A DNA stretch of 64,000 bases from Wenzhouxiangella sp. AB-CW3 (GTDB taxonomy: Bacteria > Pseudomonadota > Gammaproteobacteria > Xanthomonadales > Wenzhouxiangellaceae): positions 1,999,225 to 2,063,224 of the forward strand of contig NZ_CP061368.1 of assembly GCF_014725735.1 (NCBI RefSeq), given 5' to 3'. Of this stretch, positions 32,320-60,029 are shown in pieces (the stretch's first letter is position 1; every line of letters starts with the position of its first letter). The notes beneath the pieces were generated by a model. The model had not been told where the DNA came from and did no database searches. It saw only the letters and a list, made by a program, of their open reading frames with translations. Made by a program: the position numbers and the translations under genes.

Positions 32320-33453
32320 TCAATGAGCCGCCGAGACCGAGCGCATGATTTCTCCTGCCATCTTGTCCAGTGACAACACCTTGGCCACCCCGCCCAAGCC
32401 GATGGCCGAGCGCGGCATGCCGAACACGATGCAACTGTCTTCGTCCTGGGCCACGGTGTGCGCGCCGGCACGGGACATGGCCAGCAAACCGCGGGCGCCG
32501 TCATCGCCCATGCCGGTGAGAATGAAGCCCGCCGCGTTGCGACCGGCCTGCTCGGCCACGGAGTGAAACAGAACATCGACCGAGGGCTTGTGACGATTGA
32601 CGGGAGCGGCATCGGTCAGGCGAACATGGTACTGGGCACCGCGGCGAATCAACTCCATGTGACGGCCGCCGGGCGCAATCAGGGCGCGCCCGGTAAACAC
32701 CCGGTCGTTGTCACGTGCCTCGCGCACCTCAATGCGACACATGCTGTTGAGCCTCTCGGCAAACATGGCGGTGAACTTCTCCGGCATGTGCTGAACGATC
32801 ACGATTCCCGGCGTAACCGCAGGCAGCGCCGTGAGCACACGCTCCAGGGCCTGTGTGCCGCCGGTCGACGTACCAATCGCCACCACCTGCTGGGTCGTCT
32901 CACTCATCGCGGTTGCCACCGGTGCAACCGCCGGTTCCCGGGTCGAGCCGGCAGGCTCACGCCCGCGGGCAACCGGCTCCGGCCGCCGGGCAACCGACTG
33001 CCCCAGGTTTCTCAGCCGTGCCTGGGCCGCACCCTTGACCGCGGAAACCACATCGTTGGCACCACTGTTGAGAAAATCACTCAGACCCGCCGTGGGCTTG
33101 GTAATGATGCTCACCGCCCCGGCGCTCAGGGCCTGCATGGTGGTTTCGGCACCCTTGACCGTCAGGGTCGAGCAGATCACTACGGGGGTGGGTCGCGCCT
33201 TCATCAGCTTGCGCAGAAACGTCAGCCCGTCCATGCGCGGCATCTCGATATCGAGCACGATGACATCAGGCCATTGCTGTTTCATCTTGCGCATGGCAAA
33301 AATGGGGTCATGCGCGGTGGCGATAACCTCGATGCCCGGATCGGCCGACAGCACGTCACTCAGCACGCGCCGTACCAGTGCCGAATCGTCCACGATCAAT
33401 GCCTTGACGGGTCGACTCACCCCCCCCCGCCTGGTAGCGCCTTGAAGACTCAT
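32320..33453 (-). CDS. cheB: Chemotaxis protein-glutamate methylesterase
   Basis: CheB (377 residues) removes methyl groups from chemoreceptor glutamates when phosphorylated, and can deamidate glutamines. The N-terminal receiver has Asp68 in [14 protein letters not shown] linker rich in Arg-Glu-Pro (about 151-185) leads to the esterase domain. Its catalytic triad is Ser196 ([10 protein letters not shown]), His222 (VQHMPEKF) and Asp318 (GMGDDGARG). The ATG overlaps the cheD stop (ATGA) and has GAGGA upstream. Codons 9-12 contain a run of nine G on the coding strand, just before an in-frame GTG that could serve as a secondary start. Confidence 0.95.
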
Positions 33454-43876: not shown

Positions 43877-44455
43877 TTACCTGACCAGCCGACGAATCTC
43901 GTCGAGATCCAGCAGCGCCATGCGCCGACTGGCGACAGTACCAGCCAGCCAGATTCGCTTGCCGGCGGTGCTGCGCCAGCTGACATCGTCCAGGTCAAGC
44001 TCTTCCTCAATGCCCTCGCTTTCGGCCACCAGCGCCCAGTCGCCATCGTCCAGCACGACCAGATGATGTGAATCATTGGCCAGGCGCAGACCGGGATCGG
44101 CCTGTCCGGGTGGCAACACCAGGGTACGGGTATCGACCACGATCAAGGGACCGGAGTCGGTTTCGGCCACGCGCCGCCAGTGCGGCGCCAGCGGCGGCGT
44201 CATGATCTCGGGAAGGGCCATCTCGCAACTGATTCTTCCGGCCGGAATGGCCAGGGTCAGACCTGCGGCAACAAAACGATAGTAGAGATCCGACGTCAAC
44301 TCCTCAGCCGCCATCTCCGGCGCGGGCGCCAACAGTGGTTCAGAAGATGCCTCCACACCATTGCGCTTTGCCGGCCGGTCGCCCCCGAGCAATTGCTCCA
44401 GGTACTCCTGCAGCGCCCGGCTGGCGCCGGTCAATCCGGAATGTGTATTCATCAT
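43877..44455 (-). CDS. CheW-like ParP-type array localisation protein
   Basis: A 192-residue protein with an N-terminal part of about 60 residues (EYLEQLLGGDRPAKR) and a diverged CheW-like domain (from about LYYRFVAAGLTLAIPAGRIS to WLAGTVASRRMALLDLDEI). The place directly after the ParA-like ATPase and before cheW is that of ParP (Vibrio) and of PA1463 (Pseudomonas). ParP joins CheA and receptors through its CheW-like AIF domain and, with ParC, keeps the chemotaxis array at the pole. The N-terminal region is short compared with Vibrio ParP. It overlaps the ATPase stop by four bases. Confidence 0.7.
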   Translation of the reverse strand: MMNTHSGLTGASRALQEYLEQLLGGDRPAKRNGVEASSEPLLAPAPEMAAEELTSDLYYRFVAAGLTLAIPAGRISCEMALPEIMTPPLAPHWRRVAETDSGPLIVVDTRTLVLPPGQADPGLRLANDSHHLVVLDDGDWALVAESEGIEEELDLDDVSWRSTAGKRIWLAGTVASRRMALLDLDEIRRLVR

Positions 44456-45255
44456 GCGCTTGCCTCCTCGGCAGCCGGTTCGTCGGCCCGCTCTTGCTCC
44501 AGCGCCAGCAGATCGTCCAGCAGCACCTTGAATGCCTTTGCACCTCGGCTGCCGCGATCCAGACAGGGTAGCGGTCGACCCTGCCGGCTGGCTTCCCGGA
44601 ACTGGGTATCCACCGGAATCACCTGCTCCCAGAGCACGTCCTCATAGTCCTCGCGCAACTGCCTGAGCACCCGAATGGATGCACGAGTGCGACGGTCGAA
44701 TATGGTCGGCACAACCAGGTGCGGCAGCATCTCCCCCCGCGAGTGGTTGATCATCTCCAGGGTACGACTCATTCGTTTCAGGCCCTTGAGGGCCAGGTAT
44801 TCGGTCTGGGTCGGGACGATCACCTTCGAGGCGGCGGCCAGAGCATTGACCATCAGAACGCCCAGGGTGGGAGGGCAGTCGAGGATCACCCGGTCGTAAC
44901 TCCCGGCCACGGCTTGCAGTGCCTGCGACACGACAAGTCCCTGCCCCTGGCGACTGCCCAACTGCCGGTCCAGGGTGGCCATGGCCGGTTCGGCAGGGAG
45001 TAGATCCAGACCTTCTTCCTGGGTTTCCAGAATCAACCGGCGCGCATCGGCCGCACCGTCTTCACCAAACAGGTCGTACACGCTACCCGGAAGGTTCTCG
45101 GGATCCAGTCCGAAGTAGCTGGTCAGCGAGGCATGCGGATCGAGATCGACAAGCAAAGTGCGCTGCTTTCGGAGAATCAGCCATCCGGCCAGCGAAACCG
45201 CGGTCGTGGTCTTGCCCACTCCACCTTTCTGATTGGCCACTGCCCAGGTATTCAT
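44452..45255 (-). CDS. parC: ParA/MinD-family ATPase, ParC-type chemotaxis positioning protein
   Basis: A 267-residue deviant Walker-A ATPase. NQKGGVGKTTTAVSLAG is the Walker A motif, LLVDLDPHASLTSYFG the A' region, and ILDCPPTLGVL the Walker B. Chromosomal ParA (Soj) would be expected with parB; here the neighbours are motD and the CheW-like parP gene, so this is the ParC type that sets polar localisation of chemotaxis arrays, as described in Vibrio and Pseudomonas. Both ends overlap neighbours by four bases, so it is coupled to motD and parP. Confidence 0.85.
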   Translation of the reverse strand: MNTWAVANQKGGVGKTTTAVSLAGWLILRKQRTLLVDLDPHASLTSYFGLDPENLPGSVYDLFGEDGAADARRLILETQEEGLDLLPAEPAMATLDRQLGSRQGQGLVVSQALQAVAGSYDRVILDCPPTLGVLMVNALAAASKVIVPTQTEYLALKGLKRMSRTLEMINHSRGEMLPHLVVPTIFDRRTRASIRVLRQLREDYEDVLWEQVIPVDTQFREASRQGRPLPCLDRGSRGAKAFKVLLDDLLALEQERADEPAAEEASA

Positions 45256-46178: not shown

Positions 46179-46919
46179 CTAGTTCAGGAAACCCTGAAGC
46201 TTGGTTTCGATATTGCGCGGGTTTTCGCCCTGGGCGATCGAGACGATGCCCTCGACAATCATTTCGCGCACCTTGCTCTGGGTCTGTACCACACCCTTGA
46301 GTTTTCCTCCCATCGGCAGGAAAAACAGGTTGGCCGAGGCAATCCCGTAGATGGTGGCAACAAAGGCAACGGCGATGCCTCGGCCGAGGTACTCGGGATC
46401 GGCCAGGTTCTGCATCACCGCGATCAGCCCCATGACCGCGCCGATGATTCCCATGGTGGGCGCGTAAATGCCCATGGACTCGAACACCTTGGCCGCAGCC
46501 AGGTCCAGTTCCTCGCGGGTGGAGATCTCGACCTCCATGATGTTCTGTATGGCATCGGGCTCACTGCCGTCGACCAGCAGTTGCAGGGCCTTGGCAATGA
46601 ATGGATCGGACTCCATCTCGACATTGGACTCCAGCCCAAGGAGTCCCTGCTTGCGGGCGACCTGGCTCCACTCGATGATCTTCTCGATGACCGCTTCGCT
46701 ACCCAGATCAGGTGGGAAGAACACCCAGCGCACGATATTCATGGCCCGCATCATCACGGCCATGGGCGTCTGCAGCAGCGTGGCCGCCACGGTGCCCACG
46801 ATCACGATGACAAAGGCAGCACCGGACCAAAGTGCGGCAATGCCACTGCCCTTGAGCACCGTGCCGCCGAAAATGGCGATCAGGGCCAGAATGAAACCGA
46901 TGATGCTGAGAAGGTCCAT
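46179..46919 (-). CDS. motC: Flagellar stator protein MotA/MotC
   Basis: A 246-residue MotA-family protein with four membrane helices: residues about 3-20, 28-50, 150-170 and 180-200. The cytoplasmic loop carries the charged residues that act on FliG (VIEKIIEWSQVARKQGLLGLE). The conserved prolines near the channel are in YAPTMGIIGAVMGLIAVMQN. The C-terminus is the short amphipathic tail NIETKLQGFLN. It lies nine bases after cheA and nine before motD, so the stator pair and CheA are one transcript. In Pseudomonas cheB lies between cheA and motC; here it does not. Confidence 0.9.
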   Translation of the reverse strand: MDLLSIIGFILALIAIFGGTVLKGSGIAALWSGAAFVIVIVGTVAATLLQTPMAVMMRAMNIVRWVFFPPDLGSEAVIEKIIEWSQVARKQGLLGLESNVEMESDPFIAKALQLLVDGSEPDAIQNIMEVEISTREELDLAAAKVFESMGIYAPTMGIIGAVMGLIAVMQNLADPEYLGRGIAVAFVATIYGIASANLFFLPMGGKLKGVVQTQSKVREMIVEGIVSIAQGENPRNIETKLQGFLN

Positions 46920-46928
46920 CGCCAGTTC

Positions 46929-48953
46929 CTAGCGCAGCCTGCCGACCCGTTTCATCAACCCGTTGACGTCCATGATCAATGCGATATAGCCATCGCCAGT
47001 GATGGTGGCTCCGGCAAAGCCGGTCAGACCCTGCAGCAGGGTACCGAGCGGCTTGATGACCACTTCTTCCTGGCCAAGCACATCGTCGGTCACGAAACCG
47101 ACTGCGTCGCTGCCCACCTGGATCACCACCACATAGCCGCTATTGTCATCCTGACCTTCATCGCCCAACTGCATCAGGCGATCGAGGAAGACCAGCGGCA
47201 ATGGCTTGTCACGCACCATGACCACGTCACGACCCTCGACCTGGCGCACGGCATCGGGTTCAAGAAAGAATACCTCGACCACGTGAGACAGCGGAAAGGC
47301 GTAGCGGCGACGTCCAAGCTGCACCATCAGCGCCGGCAGGATGGCCAGGGTAAGCGGCACACGCACCCGAAAGGTCGTCCCCTGGTCCGGCTCCGACTGA
47401 ATGTCGATGGTCCCGTTGAGCTCTCCGATACGGGTCTTGACCACATCCATGCCCACGCCACGACCGGAGACTTCCGACACCTCGTCACGCGAAGACAGCC
47501 CGGGCAGCAGCATCAGATCGAAACACTCGTGACGTTCCAGCTTGGCGGCCACTTCATTCGACACCAGCCCCTTGGCCACTGCCTTGCGTCGCAGCGCATC
47601 AGCATCGATGCCGGCGCCGTCGTCGCGTATGGTAATGACGATGTGATCGCCTTCCTGGGCTGCCGCCAGTTCGACGTGGCCGGCTCGCGGTTTTCCCTTG
47701 GCCTCGCGCTCGCCAGGGGACTCGATACCATGATCCATGGCATTGCGGACCAGGTGCACCAGGGGGTCGGCCAGTGCCTCGACCAGGTTCTTGTCCAGGT
47801 CAGTGTCCTCGCCCTGCATGGTCAGCTCGATTTCCTTGTTCAGATTGCGAGCCAGGTCTCGGGTCAGACGCGGAAAACGTGAGAACACCTTGCCAATGGG
47901 CTGCATGCGGGTCTGCATCACGCCCATCTGCAGATCCGCCGTCACCAGGTCGAGGTTGCCCACGGCATTCTGCAACTCCTCGTTCTTCAGCTGCGCTCCG
48001 AGGTTGGTAAGGCGGTTGCGCACCAGCACCAGTTCGCCCACCAGATTCATGACCGTATCAAGGCGCGACACATCGACCCTGACGGTCGATTCGGCCACGG
48101 TCGTCGGTGTCTGAACCCGGGGCGCGGCCTTTTGCGCCTCGTTGTTCTGTTCCGGTTGAACAGGATCCGGCGCCGGGGTTTCCTGCTGCCCACTGCCAGC
48201 CTGCTGCAGCTCATCGAGCAGGGCCTCGAACTCTGCCTCGGTAATCTCGTCCTCGCTGTCGCTCTCGGTCCGAGACATCTCCGGGGCGGCGGCCTTGTCC
48301 TCGACACGAGCGTCTGATTCGGTAGCACTCACTTCTTCGCCCTGCCCCTGCATCTGGTCGAGCAGGGCCTCGAACTCGTCCTCGGTGATCTCGTCGGATT
48401 CCTCGTTCTTGCCCGCCACGTCCAGCTCGCTCGACTCACCCGTGCCCGAATCACCTTCCAGTGCTTCGGCCAGCATGTTCTCGAACTCGTCGTCGGTCAC
48501 ATCACCGCCACCCCCCTCGGTGCCGGCGGATTGCGCAGGCGCCTGCTTGGGCCCGGCGCCACCCGTCTGGCGCACGAAACCACGCAACTGATCGAGCAGT
48601 GCCGGCGGCGCCGGTTGCGGTTCACTTCCGGCCCGCAGGGCCTCGAGCATGGCGGTGACCACGTCCAGCGCGTGCAGGATGGCATCCATGATGTCGGCAT
48701 CAAGCTCGCCTTCCTTGCGACGCAGGGCATCAAAGACCTCTTCGGCACAATGACAGCAGTCCACCAGCGGGGCGATATCGAGAAATCCCGCCCCGCCCTT
48801 GATGGTGTGAAAAGCTCGAAAAATGCTGTCCAGCAGCTCACGGTCATCAGGCTGGCGCTCCAGCCGAACCAGCTGTTCACCAAGCTGATTGACGATCTCA
48901 CCGGCCTCATTGAGATAGTCCTCGCGTATGCTGTCATCGACCTGGTAGTTCAT
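46929..48953 (-). CDS. cheA: Chemotaxis histidine kinase CheA
   Basis: CheA (674 residues) phosphorylates CheY and CheB in response to receptors. The P1 domain carries the phosphorylated His49 (RAFHTIKGGAGFL). A long acidic linker (about 130-288) has no obvious P2 fold but three copies of a short motif: VTDDEFENML at 152, ITEDEFEALL at 189 and ITEAEFEALL at 237. The dimerisation domain (about 290-350) follows (RLDTVMNLVGELVLVRNRL). The ATPase domain has NAMDHGIES, DDGAGID and GRGVGMDVVK. The C-terminal P5 is a CheW-like regulatory domain. It is placed between cheZ and motC. Confidence 0.96.
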   Translation of the reverse strand: MNYQVDDSIREDYLNEAGEIVNQLGEQLVRLERQPDDRELLDSIFRAFHTIKGGAGFLDIAPLVDCCHCAEEVFDALRRKEGELDADIMDAILHALDVVTAMLEALRAGSEPQPAPPALLDQLRGFVRQTGGAGPKQAPAQSAGTEGGGGDVTDDEFENMLAEALEGDSGTGESSELDVAGKNEESDEITEDEFEALLDQMQGQGEEVSATESDARVEDKAAAPEMSRTESDSEDEITEAEFEALLDELQQAGSGQQETPAPDPVQPEQNNEAQKAAPRVQTPTTVAESTVRVDVSRLDTVMNLVGELVLVRNRLTNLGAQLKNEELQNAVGNLDLVTADLQMGVMQTRMQPIGKVFSRFPRLTRDLARNLNKEIELTMQGEDTDLDKNLVEALADPLVHLVRNAMDHGIESPGEREAKGKPRAGHVELAAAQEGDHIVITIRDDGAGIDADALRRKAVAKGLVSNEVAAKLERHECFDLMLLPGLSSRDEVSEVSGRGVGMDVVKTRIGELNGTIDIQSEPDQGTTFRVRVPLTLAILPALMVQLGRRRYAFPLSHVVEVFFLEPDAVRQVEGRDVVMVRDKPLPLVFLDRLMQLGDEGQDDNSGYVVVIQVGSDAVGFVTDDVLGQEEVVIKPLGTLLQGLTGFAGATITGDGYIALIMDVNGLMKRVGRLR

Positions 48954-48962
48954 GCTTGCCTC

Positions 48963-49712
48963 CTAGAAGCCGAGACTGGACAGCAGGTCATCGACCTCGT
49001 CCTGGTTCTTTAATTCCTCGGCTTTCTTCTTGCGCTTCGGCGCTGACGCTTCAGCCGCCTGCCCGGCTTCGCTGACCTTGTCGGAAACCTGGCCGGACAG
49101 CCGGATCATGTCGATCAGGGTGGTTTCCACCTCCTGCACCAGTCGAACCACCTTGCGAATGGTCTGCCCGGACAGGTCCTGGAAATTCTGGGCCAGAAGC
49201 ACTTCCGAGAGATTGCCGCGAAGCTGGCCGCTATCGGCGCGGGTCTGCTCGAAGAAGGCCTGGGTGGTTCTGATCAGTTCATTGAACTCGGCGGCTGACA
49301 TTTCACGACGCCTGAATCGACGCCACTGACCATCGAGTGACTCGCAGCTTTCAGCCAGAGACTCGGTCAGGGGCAGGCTCTCCTCGACCAGGTCCATGGT
49401 CTTGTGTGCCGACTCCTCGGTCATGGCCACCACCTGGTCGAGTCGGTGACGGGCATCGGGGAACTCTTCCTTGGCCAGGGCCTCGACGCGCGGATCGACC
49501 TGAAAGTTGGTCAGCGCCTCATGCAACTGCCGGGTCAACCGTCCGATATCCTGAAACAGGGAGCGTTCACGCAATGCCGTCAGTTCGTCGAGGTTGGCAT
49601 AGAAAGTGGCCTCGTCGCCGGCACGGGCAGCGCTTGCCAGCGTCTCGATGGTCTCGAGATAGTCCTGTGGCTTGCCCGCCTCGGCTATTCGAACCGAATC
49701 TGCGTCATTCAT
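48963..49712 (-). CDS. cheZ: CheY-phosphate phosphatase CheZ
   Basis: CheZ (249 residues) dephosphorylates CheY-P and so resets the motor signal. The phosphatase helix contains [20 protein letters not shown], with the catalytic Gln and Asp of the family. A flexible lysine-rich linker leads to the CheY-binding C-terminal helix, which ends [14 protein letters not shown] like the enteric protein. The ATG overlaps the cheY stop by four bases. No abnormality seen. Confidence 0.94.
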
Positions 49713-50101
49713 GAGCCTGCCTCCAGACGTTCGAAGACCTTCTCGAGCTTGTCCTTGAGGGTCTCGGCAGTAAACGGCTTGACCACGTAGCCATTGACTC
49801 CGGCCTCGGCGGCAGCGACGATCTGGTCGCGCTTGGCCTCGGCGGTCACCATCAACACCGGAATACTCTTGAGGTCATCGTCGGCGCGCATGGTCTTGAG
49901 CAGTTCCAGGCCCGTCACGCCGGGCATGTTCCAGTCGGTCACGACGAAATCGATCGGCGTGGACCTCAGCACCTGCAGGGCCGATTTACCATCGTCGGCT
50001 TCCTTGATATTGCTGAAGCCCAGCTCCCGGAGCTGATTGCGGATGATGCGACGCATTGTCGAAAAATCATCCACCACCAGTAGCTGCATGTTCTTGTCCA
50101 A
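49709..50101 (-). CDS. cheY: Chemotaxis response regulator CheY, TTG start
   Basis: CheY (130 residues) is phosphorylated by CheA and binds the flagellar switch protein FliM. The acidic pocket is VVDDFS, the phosphorylated Asp56 is in [11 protein letters not shown], the switch Thr in LMVTAEAKR, and the Lys in [11 protein letters not shown]. The frame begins with TTG at 50101, for which AAGGAG is at the ideal distance (about six bases); the first ATG at 50089 would place that ribosome site 18 bases away. It follows fliA after a 56-base gap in which I see no clear promoter. Confidence 0.95.
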
Positions 50102-59021: not shown

Positions 59022-60029
59022 TCAGGCCTCCTCAAGCTTGAAACTGGTGTCGCGGACCTGCTCGACCCGCTCCTGAATCTTGATCGCATAGCGATCGCGG
59101 GAAACACCGACCGTGCCGCGAAAGCAAGGCACGCCCTCGACGATGACCGGTACGGTTTCGGGCAAATCCACCGGAATAACATCGCCCGGGCGCATTCGCA
59201 CCAGGTCACGCACAGTTAATTTCTTGCGGCACAACTCGGCCTTGATGCCGACATCGGCGCCGCGGATCTCGTCGCGCAGCGCCTTCATCCAGCGCTCGTC
59301 TTTTTCCATCCGGTCCGATGCCATGCCCGAATCCAGCGTCTCCCGGATTGGCTCCAGAGAGGAATAGGGGATGGTGACGTGAACTTCGCCACTGATGCCT
59401 TCCAGCTCGACGCTGAAACGCGTCACGACCACGATCTCCGACGGGCTGACGATATTGGCGAACTGTGGATTGATCTCCATGTTGCTGAACTCGAAATCCA
59501 CGTCCAGGGCCGGTTTCCATGCCTCGCTGAGATCCACGAAGATCTGGTTGCGCAGGCGCTCGATGACCCGCGTTTCGACCGGGGTGAACTCGCGCCCCTC
59601 GATACGCACGTGAAATCGTCCATCGCCGCCGAAAAAGGTATCGACCACCGCGAACACGAAGCGGGCATCCAGCACCAGCAGGCTGGTGCCACGCAACGGC
59701 CGCACTCGCATCAGGTTCAGGCTGGTGGGCACATGCAGCTGCCGCATGTACTCCTGGAACTTCATCATCTCCACGCCGGCCACCGAAATCTCGGCCGATC
59801 GCCGCAGCATATTGAACAGACCGATGCGGAAGTAGCGCGCAAAGCGTTCGTTAATCATTTCCAGCGTGGGCATGCGCCCGCGAACGATCCGGTCCTGGCT
59901 GGCGAAATCGAAACTCTGGACCTCACCCTCGACGGCTGCCCCGCCTTCGGTATCTACATCTCCGGAATCGACCCCGTGCAGTAAGGCATCGATTTCGTCC
60001 TGGTCAAGAATATCGCTGCGATTGCTCAT
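59022..60029 (-). CDS. fliM: Flagellar switch protein FliM
   Basis: FliM (335 residues) is the C-ring protein that receives CheY-P and changes the direction of rotation. The CheY-binding peptide is at the N-terminus (ILDQDEIDALLHGV, residues 7-20). The middle domain includes LNLMRVRPLRGTSLLVLDA and FFGGDGRF, and the C-terminal SpoA-type domain GDVIPVDLPETVPVIVEG. Length and arrangement are ordinary. It lies 12 bases after fliL. Confidence 0.97.
   Translation of the reverse strand: MSNRSDILDQDEIDALLHGVDSGDVDTEGGAAVEGEVQSFDFASQDRIVRGRMPTLEMINERFARYFRIGLFNMLRRSAEISVAGVEMMKFQEYMRQLHVPTSLNLMRVRPLRGTSLLVLDARFVFAVVDTFFGGDGRFHVRIEGREFTPVETRVIERLRNQIFVDLSEAWKPALDVDFEFSNMEINPQFANIVSPSEIVVVTRFSVELEGISGEVHVTIPYSSLEPIRETLDSGMASDRMEKDERWMKALRDEIRGADVGIKAELCRKKLTVRDLVRMRPGDVIPVDLPETVPVIVEGVPCFRGTVGVSRDRYAIKIQERVEQVRDTSFKLEEA

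Follow-up and report, generated by a model that had tools for sequence, protein, structure and literature searches.

The window analysed here, a stretch of 64,000 nucleotides from Wenzhouxiangella sp. AB-CW3, holds a flagellar and chemotaxis cluster on its minus strand, in which genes for CheZ, CheY, MotC, MotD, ParC, ParP and CheW lie near the gene for CheA. The names MotC, MotD, ParC and ParP are presumptive, given by likeness and position. The open reading frames show the neighbourhood FleN–FliA–CheY–CheZ–CheA, and we take the CheA of such a cluster to be class F6. The main features, in window coordinates, are as follows.

46929..48953, minus strand: CheA, 674 aa, P1–linker–P3–P4–P5 without P2 (Pfam and AlphaFold2)
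48630..48929, minus strand: P1 (Hpt) domain, aa 9–108 (Pfam)
48084..48566, minus strand: disordered linker, aa about 130–290, ~160 residues (AlphaFold2 pLDDT)
48459..48494, minus strand: motif copy 1, DDEFENML from 48494 (aa 154), helix aa 154–165, DDEFENMLAEAL
48348..48383, minus strand: motif copy 2, EDEFEALL from 48383 (aa 191), helix aa 191–202, EDEFEALLDQMQ
48198..48239, minus strand: motif copy 3, EAEFEALL from 48239 (aa 239), helix aa 239–252, EAEFEALLDELQQA
47910..48092, minus strand: P3 dimerisation domain (H-kinase_dim), aa 288–348 (Pfam)
48963..49712, minus strand: CheZ (PF04344, 1.8e-62)
48966..49004, minus strand: CheZ C-terminal peptide, QDEVDDLL from 49004 (weak 1kmi match)
49709..50101, minus strand: CheY, the proposed ligand (Response_reg, Pfam)
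59022..60029, minus strand: FliM (TIGR01397, 5e-107)
59979..60002, minus strand: FliM N-terminal QDEIDALL (same site in 29 other genomes)
44452..45255, minus strand: ParC, a ParA-like ATPase (AAA_31, Pfam)
43877..44455, minus strand: ParP, with a weak CheW-like domain (Pfam CheW, E = 0.016, below cut-off)
32320..33453, minus strand: CheB, away from CheA

The CheY of the window is close to the solved CheY chains 3to5 and 1a0o/1f4v, and its ParP shares 18–33 percent identity with 35 ParP candidates found beside ParC in other loci. CheB lies about 13 kb from CheA, beside receptor genes, and the gap between CheA and MotC (46919–46929) is without CheB; in genomes G061, G079, G210 and G212, CheB stands between CheA and MotC.

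Pfam identifies Hpt, H-kinase_dim, HATPase_c and CheW domains in CheA. Between P1 and P3, the AlphaFold2 model, calculated with 34 aligned sequences, has pLDDT mostly below 50 for aa 130–290 except at three short predicted helices, 154–165, 191–202 and 239–252, which are the three motif sites. The best ten-residue blocks at helices 1, 2 and 3 have pLDDT of 73, 80 and 81, and the helix flanks fall below 50; with a pTM of 0.53, the placement of the domains relative to each other carries little meaning. A threonine precedes each helix and the third helical residue is a glutamate, an arrangement known as a capping box. The spacers between the copies are rich in alanine and proline and disordered, and the linker as a whole is acidic.

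The sequence-only reading had placed three acidic, hydrophobic repeats at aa 154, 191 and 239 and likened them to QDEIDALL at the N terminus of FliM and QDEVDDLL at the C terminus of CheZ; all three positions, and both peptides, are as it quoted them. The fuller form of the motif is I[TS][DE][DE]EF[ED]xLLDxLHG, with copy 1 the most degenerate of the three and E241 and F242 of copy 3 invariant in an alignment of 17 sequences (A3). Among 200,000 shuffles of the linker (177 aa), a single match to a loose form of the pattern arose in 189 and two or more matches in none; the real linker has three. The coding pattern for EF[DE]xLLD matches the 3.84-Mb genome twice, at CheA copies 2 and 3 (copy 1, EFENMLA, falls outside the pattern), and a reversed control pattern matches it nowhere. 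In other genomes, the matches lying inside CheA by coordinates are 2 of 2 in G128, 2 of 3 in G164 and 2 of 3 in G174; G230 has no match and G318 one, outside CheA, because the motifs of these two CheAs end in N or Q. Counts for the reversed pattern are 0, 1, 1, 1, 0 and 1 in G000, G128, G164, G174, G230 and G318. The core DNA of copies 2 and 3 (48357–48377 and 48213–48233) is identical at 20 of 21 bases, which may reflect a recent internal duplication or mere shared codon use.

The motif is genuine, and one class of CheA conserves it. A class-level survey matched 177 of 276 genomes at E ≤ 1e-60, and 100 loci were taken from these, mostly top-ranked with lower-ranked ones as contrast and so not a random sample. 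The 79 loci whose CheA scored above 440 bits against that of the window, together with the window itself, form a set of 80 related gammaproteobacterial CheAs, 79 of which carry one to four copies; the other has a diverged form. None of the 21 more remote CheAs among the 100 loci, which are second copies or of other kinds, has the motif. Our first regular expression fits 77 of the 80, with no copy in 3, one in 6, two in 37, three in 29 and four in 5; the three zeros are a missed copy (L071), two copies on a separate open frame (L088) and two diverged copies (L101). A relaxed expression, applied to the 79 rows without L088, gives none in 1, one in 5, two in 37, three in 31 and four in 5, so that two or three copies are the usual number. 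Spacings between copies (n = 114) run from 26 to 79 residues, with a median of 43. Within the motif, the E, F, L, L and D columns are conserved at about 0.9 or more amid variable spacers, and the high columns of the 79-row linker alignment are two motif blocks, a block at the tail of P1, some prolines and the start of P3. This combination of a kept motif and a varying copy number in related linkers is the one that the sequence-only reading had suggested looking for.

In two loci from the genus of the window (L005 and L006), two copies are clear and a third is degenerate. In L056 and L060 (genomes G230 and G318, of a family with a CheY–CheZ–CheA–CheW cluster), the motifs, ITDDEFEALLNQRD and ITDEEFELLLQMRE, come without the LHGKG tail, and the tail is therefore separable from the helix core. 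Among the 79 loci, FleN is found near CheA in 71, FliA in 73, CheY in 75 and CheZ in 72; of the loci without a neighbouring CheY, the contig ends in L125 and L057, and none is in view in L046 and L080. A second survey, of named loci (the best 80 of 589, with at least one contig, L137 and L151, common to both surveys), finds the motif in 43 of the 80, including Pseudomonas, Stutzerimonas, Marinobacter, Shewanella, Vibrio, Photobacterium, Alteromonas, Dyella and Acidithiobacillus. Each of the eight Pseudomonas CheAs in this survey has three or four copies, the P. aeruginosa protein not being among those seen. A scan of viral_contigs gave no relative.

These linkers lack a recognizable P2 domain. 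Between Hpt and H-kinase_dim of the window CheA, Pfam detects no P2 or CheY-binding model and the AlphaFold2 model contains no P2 fold; a profile of the 79 motif-bearing linkers finds nothing in the PDB below E = 1.8. The earlier claim that the linker holds no folded P2 thus stands by three routes. Built from the 21 motif-less linkers, the corresponding profile does pick up CheA P2 structures (6s1k, 2lp4, 1ffs, 1fwp and 1a0o), even though Pfam detects a CheY-binding domain in just 2 of the 21. No P2 model occurs among the 25 of 28 Pfam families listed for the 79 motif-bearing linkers. SHOCT and GemA matches occur in 64 and 17 of the 79 members; we put this down to the helix motif resembling those families by chance, the window linker scoring 25.9 bits against a SHOCT cut-off of 27, and the best other member, at E = 1.3e-9, may pass the cut-off. 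When 181 linkers are scored for the motif and for P2, 121 have the motif, 22 have P2, 38 have neither and none has both. The P2 profile used for this count is home-made from 21 of the same 181 linkers and probably under-calls P2 in distant phyla, and class membership is a confounder of the mutual exclusion.

The likeness to FliM and CheZ exceeds chance. FliM was detected in 29 of the 30 genomes searched, and all 29 N termini read L[SNT]Q[DE]E[IV]DALL; that of the window is LDQDEIDALL. The CheZ C-terminal peptide gives a weak match (E = 0.09) to the CheZ C terminus of 1kmi, an entry that also holds CheY, and a 25-residue FliM N terminus finds no match in the PDB. Ten-residue profiles were run over the 59,711 peptides of all window open frames of at least 100 aa, false frames included. 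The FliM profile, built from 5 distinct peptides, ranks FliM 1st, CheZ 2nd, CheA copy 2 3rd, copy 3 7th and copy 1 29th. The CheA profile contains the copies of the window, which therefore take ranks 1–3 by construction, and it places FliM 7th and CheZ 14th. The CheZ profile is weaker, with FliM 2nd and CheA copies 1, 2 and 3 at 210th, 57th and 359th. Compared with shuffles of its own linker, the best FliM-like site is significant at p ≤ 0.05 in 77 of the 80 related CheAs (in 66 of them at p ≤ 0.01) and in 1 of the 21 motif-less ones. Such sites also occur in 6 of 38 other CheAs: four of the six Campylobacterota, L209 and Acidithiobacillus L187, which bears the motif. The motif thus has the EIDALL-like pattern of a FliM- or CheZ-type peptide and, by prediction, its short helix.

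We consider it rather probable that the CheA linker stands in for P2 as a multivalent dock for CheY built of linear motifs. Each copy would form a short, N-capped amphipathic helix, comprising a hydrophobic residue, a Ser/Thr cap, an acidic pair and E-F-[ED]-x-L-L-D-x-L, held between the Ala/Pro-rich disordered spacers. FliM and CheZ peptides bind CheY at its α4–β5–α5 face, and the CheA motifs probably bind the same face, because they resemble the FliM N-terminal and CheZ C-terminal peptides. Each chain would offer several weak sites, each CheA dimer two such chains and each array many dimers, and the linker could thereby raise the local concentration of CheY near P1, doing the job of the folded P2 domain in E. 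coli. CheY binding, the face used and an effect on phosphotransfer are all what we infer here.

Several observations sit uneasily with a CheY dock. The CheZ profile ranks the CheA copies low. The phenylalanine in place of Ile/Val and the DxLHGKG tail are absent from FliM, and the motif may therefore contact a different surface. Phosphorylated CheY is the preferred ligand of FliM-type peptides, but P2 acts on CheY that has yet to receive its phosphoryl group; a P2 substitute should also take unphosphorylated CheY. Finally, ParP is reported to bind this linker region, through the CheA domain LID, in Vibrio, and LID is described between P2 and P3, solely in CheA of species with ParC and ParP (PMC7534058, PMC5706961).

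The gene content of the motif-bearing genomes bears on the choice of partner. ParC stands beside CheA in 60 of the 79 surveyed loci, and we searched for ParC in the whole genomes of 16 strains whose CheA locus lacks it or ends early, plus three controls. ParC is encoded elsewhere in 7 of the 16 (219–310 bits); none was found in the other 9, where matches reach just 134–159 bits, the range of other ParA proteins. A ParP profile of 36 sequences, run on 17 genomes, scores 112–245 bits in seven of eight genomes with ParC and 31 bits in the eighth, G037, where the gene lies beside ParC. In the nine genomes without ParC, no ParP was detectable, the best scores being at most 35 bits and, in 7 of the 9, belonging to a CheW near CheA; a ParP as divergent as that of G037 is inseparable from CheW by score alone. 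These nine genomes span seven families with completeness of 91–100 percent, and all keep the motif in some form: four copies in G061, three in G230, two each in G318, G068 and G196, one each in G210 and G079, two on a split frame in G212 and two diverged copies in G082.

Next after CheY docking we place a shared use, in which the helices serve as sites for CheY and also, in species that have ParP, for its AIF domain, so that tethering and signalling compete or split the copies. This would fit the usual two or three copies, the frequency of ParC beside CheA and the persistence of the motif where ParC and ParP are undetected. On the other side, copy number still spans 1 to 4 in those genomes, which leaves no copy that seems reserved for ParP, and we think shared use unlikely. 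We also think it unlikely, if not negligibly so, that the motifs are simply the LID, binding the ParP AIF domain to tether arrays to the pole with CheY uninvolved. The published position and distribution of LID speak for this explanation, as do the 60 of 79 loci with ParC beside CheA and the Vibrio and Photobacterium linkers (L178 and L185), which are made up chiefly of the three copies with their Pro/Ala-rich spacers and a KGPS[IV]EELE segment. The motif does lie in the linker before P3, as LID does by description, but it is not confined to species with ParC and ParP: eight of the nine genomes without them keep one to four clear copies and G082 two diverged ones, and ParP binding is therefore an insufficient account.

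The KGPS[IV]EELE segment follows copy 3, is common to both linkers and is possibly part of the published LID. Eight Pseudomonas loci (L150, L154, L155, L157, L158, L171, L172 and L175) have ParC (247–265 bits) and ParP-like genes near CheA. This is at odds with a 2025 paper that describes P. aeruginosa as without related ParC/ParP genes (PMC12410967), P. aeruginosa itself being outside the eight.

CheZ and CheB are also dispensable. CheZ was undetected in 5 of 12 genomes (G210, G079, G145, G190 and G103), and the first four keep 1, 1, 4 and 1 copies (the CheA of G103 being outside the count), so we reject CheZ as the partner. CheB was undetected in 1 of the 12, G318, whose CheA keeps two motifs, which excludes CheB as an obligatory partner. 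The sequence-only reading had left it undecided whether the linker collects CheY or CheB; G318 weakens CheB, and with ParC/ParP, CheZ and CheB each dispensable, CheY would be the likeliest remaining partner, CheW and receptors lying beyond this test. In P. aeruginosa, CheY-EYFP is reported to colocalize with CheA-CFP at the array (PMC12410967). Genome G090 (L142), a single contig, has no FliM and no FlhA by profile and keeps CheY, CheZ, a motif-bearing CheA, ParC, ParP, CheW and 24 MCP-domain matches. With a split CheB and with FlgE and FliK genes adjoining the cluster, this genome may have lost FliM recently, and we set it aside as evidence.

It is quite improbable that the helices regulate the kinase from within the array, by acting on P4/P5, CheW or receptors: the conserved LHGKG tail, which the FliM likeness leaves unexplained, speaks for this, but the 21 more distant CheAs share P3–P5 yet do not have the motif, and the helix flanks in the AlphaFold2 model stay below 50 pLDDT. 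That the motifs are partnerless low-complexity drift is hardly credible, since for all the acidity and the Ala/Pro-rich spacers of the linker its E, F, L, L and D columns are conserved while the spacers vary, and the coding pattern is confined to CheA in its own genome.

Repeated blocks also occur in CheA linkers of other groups, and we regard them as leads. Five of six Campylobacterota linkers (L183, L196, L180, L186 and L200, with L182 the one without) have a block like MSxxEVEAEIERLL, twice in L183 and L196; Campylobacterota CheAs bear a C-terminal receiver domain. The AlphaFold2 model of the Sulfuricurvum CheA (L183; pTM 0.37) has helices at 162–184 and 204–231, at the two copies, with pLDDT of about 72–84, and the rest of its linker is poorly modelled. 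In Alphaproteobacteria, a block like GEVSxxELEAAFQ, similar in layout to the gammaproteobacterial motif, occurs in L195, L206 and L210 (twice in L195 and L210), and four Betaproteobacteria linkers (L184, L188, L217 and L218) have a [VP]DWxAL[HY] block. Likeness to FliM is not significant against shuffles for L183, L182 or the alpha- and betaproteobacterial linkers. Tentatively, P2-less CheAs may in general dock response regulators via short helices that are repeated in a disordered linker and differ between lineages, those of gammaproteobacteria having converged on the EIDALL of FliM; the lack of FliM likeness just noted counts somewhat against this generalization, which we think possible and do not yet favour.

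A domain survey reports P2 to be missing from over half of CheA proteins and, in the part available, gives only an extended unstructured region for them (PMC10782961), and how a P2-less CheA finds CheY appears to be an open question. A 2025 study of P. putida still gives CheA five domains, one of them labelled P2/CheY-binding (PMC11978298). Our literature searches, including motif strings, turned up no description of the motif, subscription papers being mostly beyond their scope, and the accessible portion of PMC2829493 contains nothing on this subject. The FliM/CheZ-like repeated helical tag in many gammaproteobacterial CheAs suggests how they may catch CheY. If so, a repeated motif that mimics the CheY tag of the motor would account for the way in which Pseudomonas, Vibrio, Shewanella and many others recruit CheY, and kinase, phosphatase and motor would be predicted to compete for one CheY surface.

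The folded P2 domain of E. coli CheA holds CheY. The motif linker occupies the same place between P1 and P3 and is proposed to do the same job, but has no fold and no sequence relation to P2 that we found, and the two never co-occur. With the CheA LID it shares, by description, the same region of CheA, and differs in persisting where ParC and ParP are undetected. The closest parallel is FliM, with EIDALL as the CheY-P site of both FliM and FliY (PMC9126983). L[SNT]Q[DE]E[IV]DALL in FliM and I[TS][DE][DE]EF[ED]ALL in CheA are both N-capped short helices; the CheA version differs in its location in a kinase linker, its one to four repeats, its near-invariant Phe in place of Ile/Val and its conserved DxLHGKG tail. 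The CheZ peptide has Val in place of this Phe, and the CheA motif is internal and repeated. CheZ and CheA nevertheless share the hydrophobic spacing of [QE]DExDxLLxxL, including a leucine seven residues after the first hydrophobic residue.
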